Assembly (NCBI GenBank): GCA_020846875.1
Contig: JADLDB010000097.1
Location: 1-43,611 of the forward strand
Origin: Myxococcales bacterium
Lineage (GTDB): Bacteria; Myxococcota; Myxococcia; Myxococcales; Myxococcaceae
Direction: 5' to 3'
Length of the DNA stretch: 43,611 bases
Shown here in pieces: positions 7,119-40,053 of the stretch. Position 1 is the stretch's first letter; every line of letters starts with the position of its first letter. Position numbers and translations under genes: made by a program. Below the pieces are notes generated by a model. That model did not search any database and was not told the DNA's origin. It saw only the letters and a list, made by a program, of their open reading frames with translations.

Positions 7119-7223
7119 GCCCAATTTCCGAGTGACTACGCCGCGATGAACGAGGGCGCGAGGACGGCCGGGCCCAGGCGCGCCCGCGTCCGGATGGCAC
7201 CGGGCTTGATCCTCCCTGGGCGC

Positions 7224-9785
7224 ATGACGCACCCCACTCGAATCCTCCCCCTGCTGGTGCTGGCTGCGGCGTGCGGCGTGGAGTCTCCGTCGGCGCCGGC
7301 ACAGCCTCCCGCCGGCCGCGGAAGCTCGGCACTCGAGGCCGCCTTCGCCGACGCGGCGCGCGCGTACCAGGTGCCCGTCGCCGTGCTCAAAGGGCTGGCC
7401 TGGACGGAGACGCGCATCTCCCCCGCGCCTGGCCTGGAGTCCGGCAGCGGCGGCAAGGGCCTGATGCAGCTCGCCCGGCGCGCAGACTGGGACACCCTGG
7501 GCGACGCGGCGCGCCTCACCGGCGTCACCGAAGGCCGCCTCACCGTGGACCCGGTGGCGAGCCTCCACGGCGCGGCGGCGGTGCTGCGCCGGCTCTTCGA
7601 CCGACAGCGGCAAGCCGACACGTCGCTCGACCCGTACGAGGCGGGCGACTGGTACCCGGCGGTGGCGCTCTACCCGGGCTTCGAGTCGGCCACCGGCGCG
7701 GCGGACTACGCGGCCGACGTCTTCCTCGCGCTCGAGGCCGGCTTCACTTCGCCCCAGAAGGACGGCGACGTGGTGCAGGCCCCGCTGGCGACGAAGTGGC
7801 GGCGGCACGCGCCCGAAGTCACCGCGCGGCGCGACGGCGTGAAGGAGTACCCGGCGGCGGCGCAGTGGGTGGCGTCTCCCAACTACTCTTCGGGGCGCAG
7901 CACCTATGAATTTGTCCTCATCCACACCACCCAGGGCAGCTACTCGGGCGCCATCTCCTGGTTCCAGAACACCAACTCCAACGTGTCGTCGCACTACGTG
8001 GTGCGCTCCTCCGACGGCGCCATCACGCAGATGGTGGAGCACCGCAACACCGCGTGGCACGCCCAGTGTTACAACGCGCGCAGCATCGGCATCGAGCACG
8101 AGGGCTTCGTCGCGGATCCAGGCCGCTGGTACACCGACGCGATGTACCGGGAGTCGGCGAAGCTGACCAAGTACATCACCGACCGCCACGGCATTCCCAA
8201 GACGCGCAGCCGCATCATCGGCCACGTGGAGGTGGCGCCCAACTGCAACACCGGCCGGCACACCGACCCGGGCAGCGGGTGGAACTGGACGAAGTACATG
8301 AGCCTCGTCACCGGCTCCGCGCCCACGCCGTCCACCGGCGTCCTCATCGGCGTCATCTACACCGGGGGCAACTCGGCCAACCGCGTGCCCGGCGCCTCGG
8401 TGACGGTGAACGGCCAGACGGTCACCAGCGACGCCAACGGCGTCTACCAGTTTACCCTGCCGCCCGGCAGCTACACCGCGGCGGCCACCAAGTCCGGCTT
8501 CGGCTCGGCCAGCACCACCAAGACGGTGACGGCGGGCGCGCAGGTGTGGGGCTCGATGGAAATCAACCCCACCCAGGCCACCGGCACGCTGCGGGGCGCC
8601 GTCTTCGTCTACAACCCGGCCAGCCCGTCGGACATGAGCCAGCGCATTCAGGGTGCCACGGTGACGGTGAACGGCCAGACGAAGACGACGGCGGCGGACG
8701 GCAACTGGCTCTTCACCCTGCCACCCGGGACGTACACGGTGGCGGTGTCGAAGTCGGGGTACATGAACAACTCGGCCACCCGCACGGTGACGGCGGGGCA
8801 GACCATCTGGGGCTCGGTGGGCCTGTCCGGCACACAGACGGCGGACGCGCAGGCGCCCACGGTGGCCATCTCCTTCCCGGCCAACGAGGCCACGCTGACG
8901 GTGGGCGCGGTGGAGCTGAAGGGGACGGCGTCGGATGACCGCGGCGCGGTGAACAACGTGCAGGTGTCGCTCAACGGCGGCGCGGCGGTGGATGTGCCGG
9001 TGACCAGCGGCACCTTCGCGGTGGACATGCTGCTCAAGCCCGGCAGCAACACGGTGGTGGTGACGGCGAAGGACGCGGCGGGCAACACCGGCCGCGCGCA
9101 GGCGGTGGCGACCTTCACCGCGGGCGTGGCGGGCGTCGTCTCCACGGGCGAGCCGGCGGCGCCGGTGGTGGGCGCGGTGCTGTCGCTGCGCGAGGCGGGC
9201 TCGGGCACCGAGGTGTCCACCGCCACCACCAACGACAAAGGCGAGTACACCCTGGGCGTGATGACGGTGGGCGCGGACTACCTGCTGGTGGTGAAGGCGG
9301 CGGGCTACCTGACGGCCAGCGAGACGGTGACGGTGCCGGAGGACCAGCAGCTCAAGCACCACGTGACGCTGGTGCCGGGCACCGACGAGGTGGGCGAGCT
9401 GCAGGTGTCCTTCGTCGAGCCGATGGACGGCGCGACGGTGACGACGGACACGGTGACGGTGTACGGCACGGCGACGGGCTTCGAGGTGGTGGCGGTGACG
9501 GTGAACGGCGCGGCGGGCGAGCTGCTGGGCAGCGGAGGCTTCTCCGCCACCGTGCCGCTGGTGGAAGGCGCCAACGTGCTGGAGGCCATCGCCTCGGGCG
9601 CGGGCGGCGAGCGGGTGTCGGCGCGCATCACCGTGACGCGGAAGCTGGTGGGCACCGGCCCCGGACCGACCAACAACCTCGCGCCGAAGGACGACCTGGC
9701 GAAGGGCGGCTGCGCGGCGGTGCCGGGCCTGGAATTGCTCGCCCTGCTGGGCGTGCTGCCGCTGCTGCGGCGCCGGAAGGACTGA
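7224..9785 (+). CDS. Envelope peptidoglycan hydrolase: transglycosylase-like plus amidase_2, MYXO-CTERM tail
   Basis: 853 residues from ATG 7224, chosen because it gives a signal peptide (MTHPTRILPLLVLAAAC) with a lipobox-like Cys17. Residues about 35-170 resemble an SLT lysozyme-like domain (VLKGLAWTETR with Glu62, GKGLMQL at 78-84). Residues 205-360 are an N-acetylmuramoyl-L-alanine amidase (amidase_2/PGRP fold): zinc ligands His234 (LIHTTQG), His334 (GHVEVAPN) and Asp348 (TDPG), and Glu291 (IGIEHEG). Two carboxypeptidase-regulatory-like repeats follow (VTVNGQT...TLPPGSYT and VTVNGQT...TLPPGTYT), then Ig-like modules, and a tail GGCAAVPG, a hydrophobic run and LLRRRKD, matching MYXO-CTERM architecture. 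It should sit at the cell surface and cut peptidoglycan, its own or a prey's. Confidence 0.88.
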   Translation: MTHPTRILPLLVLAAACGVESPSAPAQPPAGRGSSALEAAFADAARAYQVPVAVLKGLAWTETRISPAPGLESGSGGKGLMQLARRADWDTLGDAARLTGVTEGRLTVDPVASLHGAAAVLRRLFDRQRQADTSLDPYEAGDWYPAVALYPGFESATGAADYAADVFLALEAGFTSPQKDGDVVQAPLATKWRRHAPEVTARRDGVKEYPAAAQWVASPNYSSGRSTYEFVLIHTTQGSYSGAISWFQNTNSNVSSHYVVRSSDGAITQMVEHRNTAWHAQCYNARSIGIEHEGFVADPGRWYTDAMYRESAKLTKYITDRHGIPKTRSRIIGHVEVAPNCNTGRHTDPGSGWNWTKYMSLVTGSAPTPSTGVLIGVIYTGGNSANRVPGASVTVNGQTVTSDANGVYQFTLPPGSYTAAATKSGFGSASTTKTVTAGAQVWGSMEINPTQATGTLRGAVFVYNPASPSDMSQRIQGATVTVNGQTKTTAADGNWLFTLPPGTYTVAVSKSGYMNNSATRTVTAGQTIWGSVGLSGTQTADAQAPTVAISFPANEATLTVGAVELKGTASDDRGAVNNVQVSLNGGAAVDVPVTSGTFAVDMLLKPGSNTVVVTAKDAAGNTGRAQAVATFTAGVAGVVSTGEPAAPVVGAVLSLREAGSGTEVSTATTNDKGEYTLGVMTVGADYLLVVKAAGYLTASETVTVPEDQQLKHHVTLVPGTDEVGELQVSFVEPMDGATVTTDTVTVYGTATGFEVVAVTVNGAAGELLGSGGFSATVPLVEGANVLEAIASGAGGERVSARITVTRKLVGTGPGPTNNLAPKDDLAKGGCAAVPGLELLALLGVLPLLRRRKD

Positions 9786-9786
9786 G

Positions 9787-9847
9787 CGTCGCCACTGTCT
9801 CTACATGGGCCACCAGGGCGGTGGCTGGTGTAGAGGCAGTGTCGGCG
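9787..9847. repeat. Dispersed hairpin element, copy 1
   Basis: Arms CACTGTCTCTACA (9793-9805) and TGTAGAGGCAGTG (9829-9841) pair along their length with one G-U wobble, extend outward through CGTCGC/TCGGCG with one wobble and one mismatch, and enclose an inner stem GCCACC (9809-9814)/GGTGGC (9820-9825). The core from CTG 9795 to AGT 9840 is 46 nt, the same length as the copy near 36.9 kb, whose left arm is identical. It starts two bases after the amidase stop, so it may also end that transcript, but there is no T-tract. Confidence 0.7.
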
Positions 9848-35676: not shown

Positions 35677-35712
35677 CGTGCGAGGCGGGACAGGAGGCGC
35701 AGCGCCACTGAG

Positions 35713-35965
35713 GGCGGCGTCGAAGCGGGGCGGCGTCGAAGCGGGCGGCGTCGAAGCGGGCGGCGTCGAAGCGGGGCGGCGTCGAAGCGGGGCGGCGTCG
35801 AAGCGGGCGGCGTTGAAGCGGGGCGGCGTCGAAGCGGGCGGCGTCGAAGCGGGCGGCGTCGAAGCGGGCGGCGTCGAAGCGGGCGGCGTCGAAGCGGGGC
35901 GGCGTCGAAGCGGGTGGCGTCGAAGCGGGCGGCGTCGAAGCGGGGCGGCGTCGAAGCGGGGCGGC
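35713..35965. repeat. 15/16-bp minisatellite, 16 units
   Basis: The unit GGCGGCGTCGAAGCG repeats 16 times; the interval between GTCGAA cores is 15 bp nine times and 16 bp six times, the extra base being one G in a GGG/GGGG run. Only two units carry substitutions (GTTGAA at 35812 and GGGTGGC near 35913), so the array is young or kept uniform. On the minus strand a 15-bp unit codes RFDAA (pentapeptide-repeat-like), ASTPP or LRRRP depending on frame, and each 16-bp unit moves to another frame; no stop occurs in any of them. It fills the 338-bp gap between convergent genes. Confidence 0.92.
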
Positions 35966-36014: not shown

Positions 36015-36707
36015 TCAGCTCTGGCCGGGCTGGCCCTCGATGTCGGTGCGCGCCGGGGCGCCGTGCACGCGCACCTCGCTGGAGCCAAAGGCGTGGCCGC
36101 TCACCTGCTCGCGGGCCGTGACGTGGATGGTGCTGAGTTGCTCGGCCAGCACCCGGGCCACCTTCGCGTCGACGGCCAGGGCCACCACGTCGCTCTCGTC
36201 GCTGGCGGCGGCCTCCACCACCCGGGCCGCGCCCGAGGCCTCCACCCGCGAGTCACCGCGCGCCTCCAGCACCAGCGCGTCGCAGTCCACCGCGCGCGCG
36301 TGGAGCCGGGAGGAGCCCTTCGCCCGCAGCGCCACCCGTGCCCCTCTCAGCTTCTGCACCGTCACGTTGGCGCCGGCCGAGGAGCTGACGTCCCCCAGGT
36401 AGGTGGTGCGCAGCTTGAGGCGCAGCGGCACCACCGGGCTCAGGCCCTCCGCGTCGATGCGCAGCGTGCCGCCGGCGAGGTCCCACGAGACGTGGGACAC
36501 CAGGTTCTCGTCGGCCTCGAGGTGCATGCCCGGCGAGGCCTGCGGGTCCACCTCCACCTCCACCGCGATGGGCCCGGCGACCTCCAGGGTAGCGAAGGCG
36601 TCCAGCTTGCGCTCCACCACCGTGGCCACCCCGTCGCCCTGCAGCCGGGGCGCGCAACCGGAGACGACGAGGAGGAGCGAGGCAGCGAAGAAGAGGCGGC
36701 GGTTCAT
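36015..36707 (-). CDS. DUF2807 (head GIN domain) lipoprotein
   Basis: 230 residues from ATG 36707, the start that gives the lipoprotein signal MNRRLFFAASLLLVVSGCAP (Cys18). Two repeats of a right-handed beta-solenoid-like pattern follow, as in the DUF2807/GIN family: VERKLDAFATLEVAGPIAVE at the front, then LRIDAEGLSPVV, SSAGANVTVQ, AKGSSRLHARA, ARGDSRVEASGAARV. The recurrent short Ser/Gly-turn strands are the family's mark. These proteins are thought to be adhesin heads or envelope-stress-related; function is not established. Likely anchored in the outer or inner membrane by the lipid. Confidence 0.85.
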   Translation of the reverse strand: MNRRLFFAASLLLVVSGCAPRLQGDGVATVVERKLDAFATLEVAGPIAVEVEVDPQASPGMHLEADENLVSHVSWDLAGGTLRIDAEGLSPVVPLRLKLRTTYLGDVSSSAGANVTVQKLRGARVALRAKGSSRLHARAVDCDALVLEARGDSRVEASGAARVVEAAASDESDVVALAVDAKVARVLAEQLSTIHVTAREQVSGHAFGSSEVRVHGAPARTDIEGQPGQS

Positions 36708-36880
36708 GTGGTGCGTCCATCGGTCGGGCGCCGCCGGCTCGCGGGCCCTTCTGCCTGAGTGGGTTGCCCGCACCGACGGGAGCGATCACTCCACCATTCA
36801 CGCAGGACTGAAATGGCAAACGGGACGGACGGTTCCGTGGGTGCCGGGAGCGGCCGGAGCGCTCCTGGGAGCCGCCGAGG

Positions 36881-36938
36881 GGGGGAACTGTCTCTACACC
36901 ATGGGCAAAGAGTGCCCGCCGTGTAGAAGCAGTCCCCC
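36881..36938. repeat. Dispersed hairpin element, copy 2
   Basis: Arms GGGGGAACTGTCTCTACAC (36881-36899) and GTGTAGAAGCAGTCCCCC (36921-36938) pair with one bulged A, one G-U pair and one A-C mismatch. The inner stem is GGGCA (36903-36907)/TGCCC (36913-36917), different in sequence from copy 1 but again self-complementary. The core CTG 36888 to AGT 36933 is 46 nt, as in copy 1, and the 11-nt left arm CTGTCTCTACA is identical. It lies between divergent genes, so it is not a terminator here. Confidence 0.7.
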
Positions 36939-36995: not shown

Positions 36996-37842
36996 ATGGG
37001 CACTCACCCGGTCGAGTCGCGCTTTGCGCAGGCCGCGCTGCCGCTCGAGGTGGCGCCGGCTCCTTTCGTCGCGGCCTCCGGAGCGGAGCGCGTCGTGCAG
37101 TTGGACATCGCGCGCGACCGCCGGGGCGAGCGCTTCCGCGTATGGCCGGGGGCGGACGCCAACCGCCTGGTGGTGCAGGGCGTCGACTCCAGGCTGCACC
37201 AGTTGGTGATGCTGGTGGACGAGCCGAAGCACCGCTTCCTCGCCGAAATCCCCCGCTGGACGGTGCCGGATCGCCCCGTGGTGCGGAAGGAAGGGCACCG
37301 CCGCTGGGTGGCGATGGAGACGCCGGGCCAGAAGCGGCACTTCCTGCTGGGCCTGGACGAAGCGCACCTCTTCATCGCGCAGCTGCCGCGCGGGCTGTCC
37401 TCGGTGGCGCGGGCGCGCGACGCCCTCAAGAGCCACGACGTCACCCGCGCCGAGCGGGACGCGCCGTTCCGCACCATCCGCCAGGGCGAGTGGTTCCTGG
37501 TGGCCATCGACGCCCCGCGCCTCGCCGCGTTGGACGAGGTGGCCCGCCGCGCGCCGCACCTGGTGGCCCACCAGCGGGGCATCGCCCAGACGGCCGGGTG
37601 GCGCCGCGCCGGCAGTCCCCACGTGGCCGACGAGGTGCTGCTGCTGCGGTCCGACGCCGTGCAGCCGCGACTCCACGGTGCGGCGGTGGCGAAGGCGGCC
37701 CTCGTCGCGCGCCCGGGCGTCTACGTGCGCGGCAAGGGTGAAGCACCCGGACCACGCCACCGTGGAGGTGAAGAGCTGGCGGCTGGCCCTGCCCAACGCC
37801 GAGTCCTTCAACCAGCCGGCCGGCGTCTTCTGGGTGGACTGA
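36996..37842 (+). pseudogene. Hypothetical protein gene with a one-base frameshift
   Basis: From ATG 36996 a well-coded frame runs to about residue 247 (motifs VVQLDIARDRRGERFRVWPG, FLLGLDEAHLFIAQLPRG). At 37736-37738 an AAGGGTG sequence shifts the frame: dropping one G gives GKVKHPDHATVEVKSWRLAL and a convincing end FNQPAGVFWVD with TGA 37840-37842, for about 281 residues. Without the correction the frame runs on to 38015 as a shadow across the terminator and into the next gene. Either a recent frameshift, or a sequencing error at the G run. The family is not recognised; no signal peptide or membrane segment. Confidence 0.7.
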
Positions 37843-37867
37843 AGGCCGGTGGGCCCGGAAGACGAAA

Positions 37868-37897
37868 CGGCCCCCCGGAGTCCTTCCCGGAGGGCCG
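37868..37897. terminator. Bidirectional hairpin between convergent genes
   Basis: CGGCCCCCCGG (37868-37878) and CCGGAGGGCCG (37887-37897) form a ten-pair stem with one C-A mismatch and an eight-base loop (AGTCCTTC). It is preceded by GAAA on the plus side, as in Rho-independent terminators that serve both directions, though no long T-tract follows. It sits between the frameshifted gene and the propeller gene, where both transcripts end. Confidence 0.6.
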
Positions 37898-37923
37898 CTC
37901 ACCTCACCGCGAGGCTTCCCGGC

Positions 37924-40053
37924 TTACGGGTACTCGACGTACCGCTCGAGGTTGGCCGTCGCCAGGGGGACGCTCAGGTTGGCGAGGTTCGCCACCCGGA
38001 TGCCCGCGTCGCTGATGGCGTAGACGAACTCGTCGGCCATCACGCTGCGGCGCACGTTCGGCGTCCAGTAGTACGACCAGTTGTAGTACCGCTGCACCTG
38101 GTAGAGGTCGCGCATCCCGATGGCGCCCTTCGGGGTGAAGCCGGTGACGGGGTCCACCTCGAACACCCGCAGGTCGCTGGTGAAGGACGACCAGTACTCG
38201 TCCCCGCCGGAGCTGGAGTTCCAGTCCGCGAAGGGAATGGCCAACAGCTTCTTCGCCGGGAAGTAGTTGAACGCCTTGTGCTCGGACTGCGCCTCGCTCC
38301 AGCCGTAGGCGGTGCCCACCAACTGCACGTGCGTCTGCCGCGGGTTGGCCAGGTCGGACACGTCGAAGATGGCGAGCTGCAGCGCGCGCGCCTGCCAGTC
38401 CACCGGCTGCCCGTTGACGGGCTCCGGCATGTACGTGCCGATGGTGAGCAGGTGGTTGGGGCCCATCGGGTGCATGTAGGTGGAGAAGCCGGGAATCTTC
38501 AGCTCGCCCTTCTTCACCACCAGGTTGGGGTTGGACAGGTCGAAGGTGAACAGCGGGTCCACCTGCCGGTACGTCACCACGAAGCCCTTGTCCCCGATGA
38601 TGCGGCTGGACATCACGCGCTCACCCTTGGCGAGGTCCTCCGACTGGCTGGTGACCGTCAGCAGGCCGTTGTTCTCACCCAGCACGGTGAGGCGGTTCCA
38701 GGTCTCCATGGTGCCCCACCAGTTGGTGGGGTTCACCAGGTCCGGCACGCGCTGGTTGATGGTGGTCACCACGCGGAAGTGGCCGCTGGCCGCCTCGTCC
38801 ATCGAGAACTGGTCGACGATGTGCCCATCCACCGTGCCCGACGCGGCGTACACCGCGCGATCCGGGTGGCTGATGTCGAACTTGTGCACGTAGGTGGTGT
38901 CCTTCTGGCCCGGGGCCGGCCACCACCACCAGTGACGGGTGGCCACGTAGAGGTTGTTCTGCGAGGCGTAGATTTCGCCCGGCTCCGCGATGATGCTGGT
39001 GCGCGCGATGCCGCTGTTGGCCAGGTTCAGCGTCACCACCGACACCGTGCCCAGCCGCGTCGGCGCGTTCACCCGCGAGAAGTCGCTGCAGGCGTGCGGC
39101 ACCACCAGCGTCTGGCCGTTCTGCTTCACCTTCGCCGCCGGCACCCACTCGGCCAGCGTCTGCGCGCGGATGAGCTTCTCGTTCTCGTCGATGATTCTGT
39201 CATACGCGGCGCGCAGCTTGCCCTTGTCCTCCCACAGGCCGGGCACCCAGTCGGGGCTCCACTTGAAGCCGGCGGGGAAGTTGAAGTCGTCGGACAGCAC
39301 GAGGCGCACCGAGCTGCCAATCTTCCGCGCCGAGTTGTAGTGGCCGGGCAGGTAGGTCTCCTTCAGGACGCGAAGCTGCGCCATGTTGGACACGTCCACC
39401 ACCGTCACCTTCACGGTGTTGGCGTAGTAGTAGCCGCAGGACATCGCGTCGCAGGCCACGCCCTGGGTGTTGGACAGCGGGTACCACTGGTAGATGCTGG
39501 AGAAGACGACCGCCTTGTCGGTGCCGTCGAGGAAGAGCTCCTGCGGCCAGCCCTCAATCTTCAAGGTGCCCAGCACCTGCGTCTGGTCCGCCGGCCAGCT
39601 CTTCACCGCGTGCAGCTTCTCGCCGGACAGCACGAAGATGCGCGTGCCGTCATTCTTCACGAAGTCCGCTTCATCCACGCCGGCCACCTGGTTGTTGGTG
39701 GTGGTGAAGTCCGTGGGCGCGGCCTTCGGAGGCGCGGTGCCACCGGCCGAGGCCTGTGGGCCGCCGTTGGCGTCGAAGGCCTCCGGGCCCCAGCCCCAGC
39801 CGCCCCACCAGCCCCACCCTGGCACGCCGTCGCGCTGCGCTTCCAACTGCGTGCGCATCTGCAGCACCGCGGTGTCCTCGAGGTACTGCTCGAGGTCCGT
39901 GCAGGCGTTCTGCCCGGTGAAGGCCTGCAGCCCGGCGCGCTGCGACACGCCCGGGGGCTCGGGAATCTCGCTGCCCTTGCTGCAGCCCACCGAGAAGACG
40001 CCCAACCCCGCCGCCGCCACTGCCCAACGCCATCGATTCATCCAGGACTTCAT
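37924..40053 (-). CDS. Secreted beta-propeller lipoprotein
   Basis: 709 residues from ATG 40053 (a second ATG four codons later is possible). Signal MKSWMNRWRWAVAAAGLGVF then SVGCSKG, lipobox Cys near 24. A Trp/Gly-rich patch (PGWGWWGGWGWGP) at about 79-91 precedes VAGVDEADFVKNDGTRIFVL, which closely matches the opening strand of the Beta_propel (PF09826) family. The remaining 580 residues consist of propeller-type blades with aromatic turns (YVATRHWWWWP, HLLTIGTYMPEPVNG) up to ISDAGIRVANLANLSVP. Likely at the cell surface, in binding or scaffolding; the family has no proven activity. Confidence 0.88.
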   Translation of the reverse strand: MKSWMNRWRWAVAAAGLGVFSVGCSKGSEIPEPPGVSQRAGLQAFTGQNACTDLEQYLEDTAVLQMRTQLEAQRDGVPGWGWWGGWGWGPEAFDANGGPQASAGGTAPPKAAPTDFTTTNNQVAGVDEADFVKNDGTRIFVLSGEKLHAVKSWPADQTQVLGTLKIEGWPQELFLDGTDKAVVFSSIYQWYPLSNTQGVACDAMSCGYYYANTVKVTVVDVSNMAQLRVLKETYLPGHYNSARKIGSSVRLVLSDDFNFPAGFKWSPDWVPGLWEDKGKLRAAYDRIIDENEKLIRAQTLAEWVPAAKVKQNGQTLVVPHACSDFSRVNAPTRLGTVSVVTLNLANSGIARTSIIAEPGEIYASQNNLYVATRHWWWWPAPGQKDTTYVHKFDISHPDRAVYAASGTVDGHIVDQFSMDEAASGHFRVVTTINQRVPDLVNPTNWWGTMETWNRLTVLGENNGLLTVTSQSEDLAKGERVMSSRIIGDKGFVVTYRQVDPLFTFDLSNPNLVVKKGELKIPGFSTYMHPMGPNHLLTIGTYMPEPVNGQPVDWQARALQLAIFDVSDLANPRQTHVQLVGTAYGWSEAQSEHKAFNYFPAKKLLAIPFADWNSSSGGDEYWSSFTSDLRVFEVDPVTGFTPKGAIGMRDLYQVQRYYNWSYYWTPNVRRSVMADEFVYAISDAGIRVANLANLSVPLATANLERYVEYP

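Follow-up and report, generated by a model that had tools for sequence, protein, structure and literature searches.

The stretch of DNA analysed here (the window, all 43,611 nucleotides of contig JADLDB010000097.1 of the Myxococcales bacterium assembly GCA_020846875.1) contains two copies of a 49-bp dyad element, which we have followed through the genome and its relatives together with genes for AbiEi-DUF559 proteins. Copy 1 (9793..9841, plus strand) starts 7 nt past the stop codon of a gene for an Amidase_2/SLT/Ig-repeat protein (7146..9785, plus strand) with a C-terminal sorting-like tail, GGCAAVPG...LLALLGVLPLLRRRKD. Its left half-site (9793..9814, plus strand) reads CACTG-TCT-CTACATGGGCCACC and its right half-site, inverted (9820..9841, minus strand), reads CACTG-CCT-CTACACCAGCCACC. 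Copy 2 (36886..36934, plus strand) lies between the 5' end of a DUF2807 lipoprotein gene (36015..36773, minus strand) and a divergent open reading frame of 339 aa (36996..38015, plus strand), a weaker gene call for which no Pfam match was found. Its half-sites are AACTG-TCT-CTACACCATGGGCA (left, 36886..36907, plus strand) and GACTG-CTT-CTACACGGCGGGCA (right, inverted, 36913..36934, minus strand). An initial annotation of the window had described both as hairpins; the positions, arms and inner stems that it gave were confirmed, with the full element measuring 49 nt rather than 46. The window has two matches to CTGTCTCTACA-N20-30-TGTAGA, a pattern found in 0 of 100 dinucleotide shuffles, the two copies fold as single-stranded DNA with z-scores of -5.3 and -4.5, and an unfiltered covariance-model scan of the window recovered only these two (62.8 and 69.7 bits, the next best match reaching 10 bits).

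The initial annotation had named a genome search finding only this pair as an outcome that would refute it, and this was not the outcome. A search with the arm pattern gave six places, a looser pattern added a seventh, and a covariance model made from these found ca. 17, nearly all of them aligned across the full 49 positions; the model rebuilt from this first round identified 16 strong and two degenerate copies. The proposal of a dispersed palindrome akin to the repetitive extragenic palindromic (REP) elements is supported, the copies being scattered genome-wide. Two subtypes of half-site can be distinguished, A (AACTG-N3-CTACACCA-n-GGGCA) and B (CACTG-N3-CTACRCCAGCCACC). Copy 2 of the window is of subtype A (inner stem GGGCA/TGCCC), and copy 1 combines A-like outer arms with the B inner stem (GCCACC/GGTGGC). 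Pairwise identity is 0.64 within the element versus 0.33 and 0.31 in the flanks, and its edges are sharp. By codon-model gene calls, in which two or three copies had ambiguous gene starts, the copies are intergenic, about half of them between divergent genes, about half between tandem genes and one between convergent genes. An intrinsic terminator was rejected, since no T run follows the hairpin and copies also stand between divergent genes, and the earlier remark that simple termination is insufficient was therefore well founded. Outside this genome, a plasmid DNA search with copy 1 gave no match, and the exact-arm pattern produced merely sporadic matches, differing in length and sequence, among 59 relatives. 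We judged 92 pattern matches in a broad collection of genome contigs to be due to chance, as they came from unrelated taxa and hundreds are expected for a collection of that size.

A search of this genome with PF04480 (DUF559) found only four genes (C42, C121, C36 and C4). The AbiEi-DUF559 gene of C42 has a copy of the element on either side, the two being inverted, and that of C121 has one directly at its start codon. The genes of C36 and C4 are preceded by strong hairpins unrelated to the element (51 and 33 nt, respectively), of which the C36 hairpin is single-copy. Among the neighbours of the four genes, tested by Pfam, no AbiEii toxin was found; they include a U32 peptidase, a serine dehydratase, a redoxin, a vault-like protein, an SH3 protein and an enoyl-CoA hydratase, one neighbour being without a Pfam match. 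The vault-like gene (L167:5820-8069), a bacterial relative of the major vault protein (MVP_shoulder, 8e-28), begins directly after the C121 dyad.

When 145 genomes of the order were searched with a profile, 25 of them proved to have homologues, with two more divergent ones in this genome; 64 homologue genes were fetched, and the counts that follow rest on 62-64 of them. A hairpin score of at least 14 was reached by 16 of 63 upstream regions versus 0 of 64 regions inside the genes, 1 of 192 shuffles and 1 of 38 other gene starts (Mann-Whitney p = 1.5e-4 for upstream of homologues against the latter), and fold-energy z-scores also separated upstream regions from the inside of the genes (p = 3.5e-7). 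These upstream hairpins usually measure ca. 45-60 nt, with most lengths at 46-49 or 52-61 nt, and frequently end 45-80 nt ahead of the coding match. About 10 of 62 homologues, that of genome G064 among them, have a hairpin with the same arms on both sides of the gene. The window-derived model (R2) gave weak matches across the family, the relevant ones being those of a single genome, G064, where the hairpins were found before the gene lying between two of them was known. Hairpins resemble each other in step with their proteins chiefly where the homologues are close (Mantel r = 0.12, p = 0.014), which lends weak support. In another genome (L240, G016:C222), two near-identical direct repeats of ca. 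186 bp, which have one and the same hairpin, enclose an AbiEi-DUF559 gene; a duplication or insertion may have taken place there recently. Viral contigs yielded no relative of the protein, and a Thermus plasmid match, when examined, was an ordinary AbiEi-AbiEii pair.

The AlphaFold model of the protein (mean predicted local distance difference test score 93.9) has two domains. The AbiEi part (residues 3-197 in the model, ca. 1-197 in the domain layout) resembles Streptococcus agalactiae AbiEi (6y8q, Z 13.2) and Mycobacterium tuberculosis Rv2827c (Z 10.0), and is also recognized by PADLOC (AbiEi, 1e-27) and as AbiEi_4 in 38 of 55 homologues. The remainder (residues ca. 198-303, DUF559/MTES_1575) resembles I-Bth0305I (Z 12.8) and Vsr (Z 10.6), in agreement with the sequence profile, and is of the EDxHD/Vsr nuclease type. 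E203, D234 and H252 vary little or not at all, and D261 is conserved in ca. 90% (55-62 homologues). From the model and these acidic and histidine residues, the protein can confidently be read as a predicted fusion of an AbiEi antitoxin with an EDxHD/Vsr nuclease. Both halves have relatives that act on long DNA sites: the site of AbiEi is a pair of 23-bp inverted repeats with 3 bp between them, 49 bp in total, that of Rv2827c has 13 bp between its repeats, 59 bp in total (PMC7319586), and I-Bth0305I sits as a dimer on a target of almost 60 bp (PMC3943268). In vivo, a Caulobacter DUF559 protein behaves in a Vsr-like way (PMC12907096).

The prediction that hairpin and cognate gene occur together across genomes was borne out in genus g5. 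Four genomes there hold a homologue together with a hairpin of the GAGAACAAC...GTTGTTC type. In a pattern search of 14 genomes, each of these four had two to four copies in which the arms were exact and the spacing was fixed, against 0 of 10 other genomes (three congeners plus seven) barring two 48-nt matches of differing spacing, a co-occurrence of probability 1/1001 by Fisher's test (our own arithmetic). Two of the dispersed sites have an orthologue in another species, their flanks aligning as well (L266/L275 and L272/L281). At L281, in genome G117, a block of ca. 430 nt with a small lipoprotein-like reading frame adjoins the dyad and terminates in a degenerate half-dyad; it is absent at the orthologous L272 site of G004. 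Three consecutive dyads lie within 300 bp downstream of their gene in G035 (L211 / L265, contig C29), with further repeats upstream. The pairing extends to a second phylum. A DUF559 gene of Tsukamurella (Actinomycetota), 29% identical, has a 41-nt dyad ca. 60 nt upstream, and the same dyad is found at nine places on three contigs of that genome, the neighbouring genes converging at one of them and diverging at another.

Taken together, we consider it likely that the dispersed element serves this family of AbiEi-nuclease fusions as its cognate DNA site, with many copies in the genome that have no such gene beside them and an organisation resembling that of REP sequences and the REP-associated tyrosine transposases (RAYT). 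The parts of this explanation differ in strength. The data show a dispersed family, its linkage to the gene and co-occurrence with it, the conserved acidic and histidine residues and, as a prediction, the two-domain fold, whereas binding, autoregulation, cutting and mobilisation are inferred from these. The dyad is very probably bound by the AbiEi-DUF559 protein; that the same protein brought about its dispersal is a step we favour by a smaller measure. Each site would be an inverted repeat of 41-59 bp made up of two half-sites of ca. 20-23 bp, the size of known AbiEi operators, to which the protein would bind as a dimer. The site at the start codon probably autoregulates the gene, as in AbiE. 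As the most likely route of dispersal, the nuclease domain would nick or cut at the dyad, perhaps on an extruded hairpin, and repair or re-integration would then seed copies in intergenic DNA, as is thought to happen for RAYT with REPs. Several observations weigh against this account. Neither empty-site pairs nor target duplications turned up that would demonstrate movement, and the number of copies is far below that of classical REPs. The sites conserved between species (L266/L275, L272/L281) imply that copies persist and may be old. The flanking pairs are inverted at C42 and either direct or inverted at other genes. A score of 11 was reached by 27 of 62 homologues, and more than half are without a strong hairpin by the score used; many genomes of the order are also draft assemblies.

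The strongest competing explanation, which we regard as unlikely and yet deserving of serious weight, is that an AbiEi-type repressor uses these sites as ordinary duplex operators, the dispersed copies forming a regulon or having accumulated in some other way, with no part for the nuclease in their spread. Size and position are indeed those of known AbiEi operators, half-sites separated by an unpaired gap resemble a duplex bound by protein, and many copies lie between divergent genes, that is, in promoter regions. However, copies are also found between convergent genes and just past stop codons, the likeness among copies extends over all 49 nt and stops abruptly at the ends, which has the look of copying, several genes have sites on both sides, and the catalytic residues are conserved.

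A second alternative makes the element a structured RNA, either an attenuator or a bidirectional terminator, with its fold under selection. The initial annotation had offered a structured RNA among its possibilities and had read the compensatory change between the two inner stems as a sign of such selection. Part of this stands, as the predicted fold is strong and the covariation score over 16 copies exceeds that of all 500 shuffles. However, the changes seen on both sides are mainly those between the two half-site types (GGGCA versus GCCACC) and those at the outermost base. Set against the right half in inverted form, the left half shows agreement above random re-pairing at the outermost base and the five inner positions, and agreement at the level of chance at arm positions 6-8 (0.19/0.44/0.81 versus 0.21/0.41/0.83). 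In the second hairpin family, that of genus g5 (12 copies), covariation is not above shuffles, 139 of 500 reaching it, and the five middle positions are frequently unpaired. What stays constant across families is an inverted pair of bipartite half-sites conserved in sequence, and these half-sites with their unpaired gap favour a duplex dyad bound by a protein dimer over a structured RNA. The orthologous pair L272/L281 (G004 and G117) shows two paired double changes, CTTG/CAAG versus TCTG/CAGA, which speak for the RNA; quasi-palindrome correction can also produce paired changes, and these may leave room for either that or a role of pairing. With the T tract absent, every gene-orientation class represented, pairing not kept in the N3/N5 gaps and no Rfam match at gathering scores, we find a structured RNA very improbable. 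In the A-type copies, e.g., 36886-36934, T.G and C.A mismatches recur at positions 6-7 of the arms. A T.G mismatch is where nucleases of the Vsr type act, and one may speculate that these mismatches would matter if the site were extruded.

Less probable again is a classical REP element that owes its mobility to an IS200-like tyrosine transposase, the partner that the earlier reading had suggested looking for. The genome does have intergenic dispersed palindromes and a single Y1_Tnp gene (L120, C131:31875), which has a long C-terminal extension; no dyad lies near it. The AbiEi-DUF559 loci do carry the element, and hairpins track these genes in several genera, so a RAYT partner was rejected in favour of the AbiEi-DUF559 protein. 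A GTAG/GTRG head 5' of the palindrome is also absent from the alignments, CTAC/GTAG sitting within the arms instead. The likeness to REP/REPIN sequences and their Y1/HUH enzymes (PMC2817692, PMC3116915) is one of organisation: short intergenic palindromes, dispersed copies without the gene, vertical persistence, several enzyme-palindrome pairs per genome and, at some loci here, an enzyme gene set between palindromes of its own kind. The differences lie in the enzyme, here AbiEi plus an EDxHD/Vsr nuclease and not HUH, in the missing head, in the ca. 3-18 copies found here versus tens to hundreds, and in the flanking copies being direct or inverted. Integron attC sites were rejected because the bases past AAC/GTT misfit the RYYYAAC...GTTRRRY cores and the copies are single and scattered. 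A conserved peptide (N-C-[LF]-Y-T-M-G-x-x-C-P-P-C-R-S-S, free of stops on one strand and in an open frame in A copies) can be dismissed almost entirely, the copies being intergenic and the third codon positions, by conserved columns counted, as conserved as the second and more than the first, unlike coding selection.

The cognate-site reading also has to be set beside the two systems from which its protein domains are known. As in type IV toxin-antitoxin AbiE loci (PMC7319586), there is an AbiEi fold, and immediately upstream of the gene stand inverted repeats spanning 49 or 59 bp, which the element (49 nt) and the upstream hairpins match in geometry alone. Unlike AbiE, the genes tested in this genome have no AbiEii beside them, a nuclease domain is fused and the sites are also dispersed. 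With Vsr and the EDxHD homing endonuclease I-Bth0305I the protein shares the nuclease fold and the residue order E...D...H...D, and with the latter a long dimeric target (nearly 60 bp for I-Bth0305I; PMC3943268), whereas its DNA-binding part is an AbiEi antitoxin, its gene is free-standing and its palindromes are dispersed in place of one homing site. As the enzyme and sequence features of REP/RAYT and the toxin partner of AbiE are both lacking, we have filed the system under neither. Elsewhere in the window, directly past a hybrid histidine kinase gene, there is a tandem array (35712-35965) of a 15-bp repeat, GGGCGGCGTCGAAGC, with 16.5 copies and 95% matches.

Our literature search returned no paper joining DUF559 and AbiEi, and palindromes are described in none of the 14 titles and abstracts it gave that mention DUF559; the pairing of palindrome and AbiEi-nuclease gene is apparently undescribed so far. 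More tentatively, and with slightly more doubt than confidence, we propose a mobile-site system not previously described and present in at least two phyla, in which an AbiEi antitoxin joined to an EDxHD domain would be a site-specific nuclease that spreads its own 41-59-bp operators in the manner of REPs, each paralogue having its own type of site. Palindromes of the REP type have so far been tied to a single class of enzyme (HUH/RAYT). If the proposal is true, a second, unrelated enzyme would be associated with dispersed palindromes, and partnerships of a gene with scattered sites would have arisen in evolution on more than one occasion. The DUF559 fusions, which in databases still stand as proteins of unknown function or as AbiEi antitoxins without a toxin, would moreover gain a concrete substrate and a testable function.
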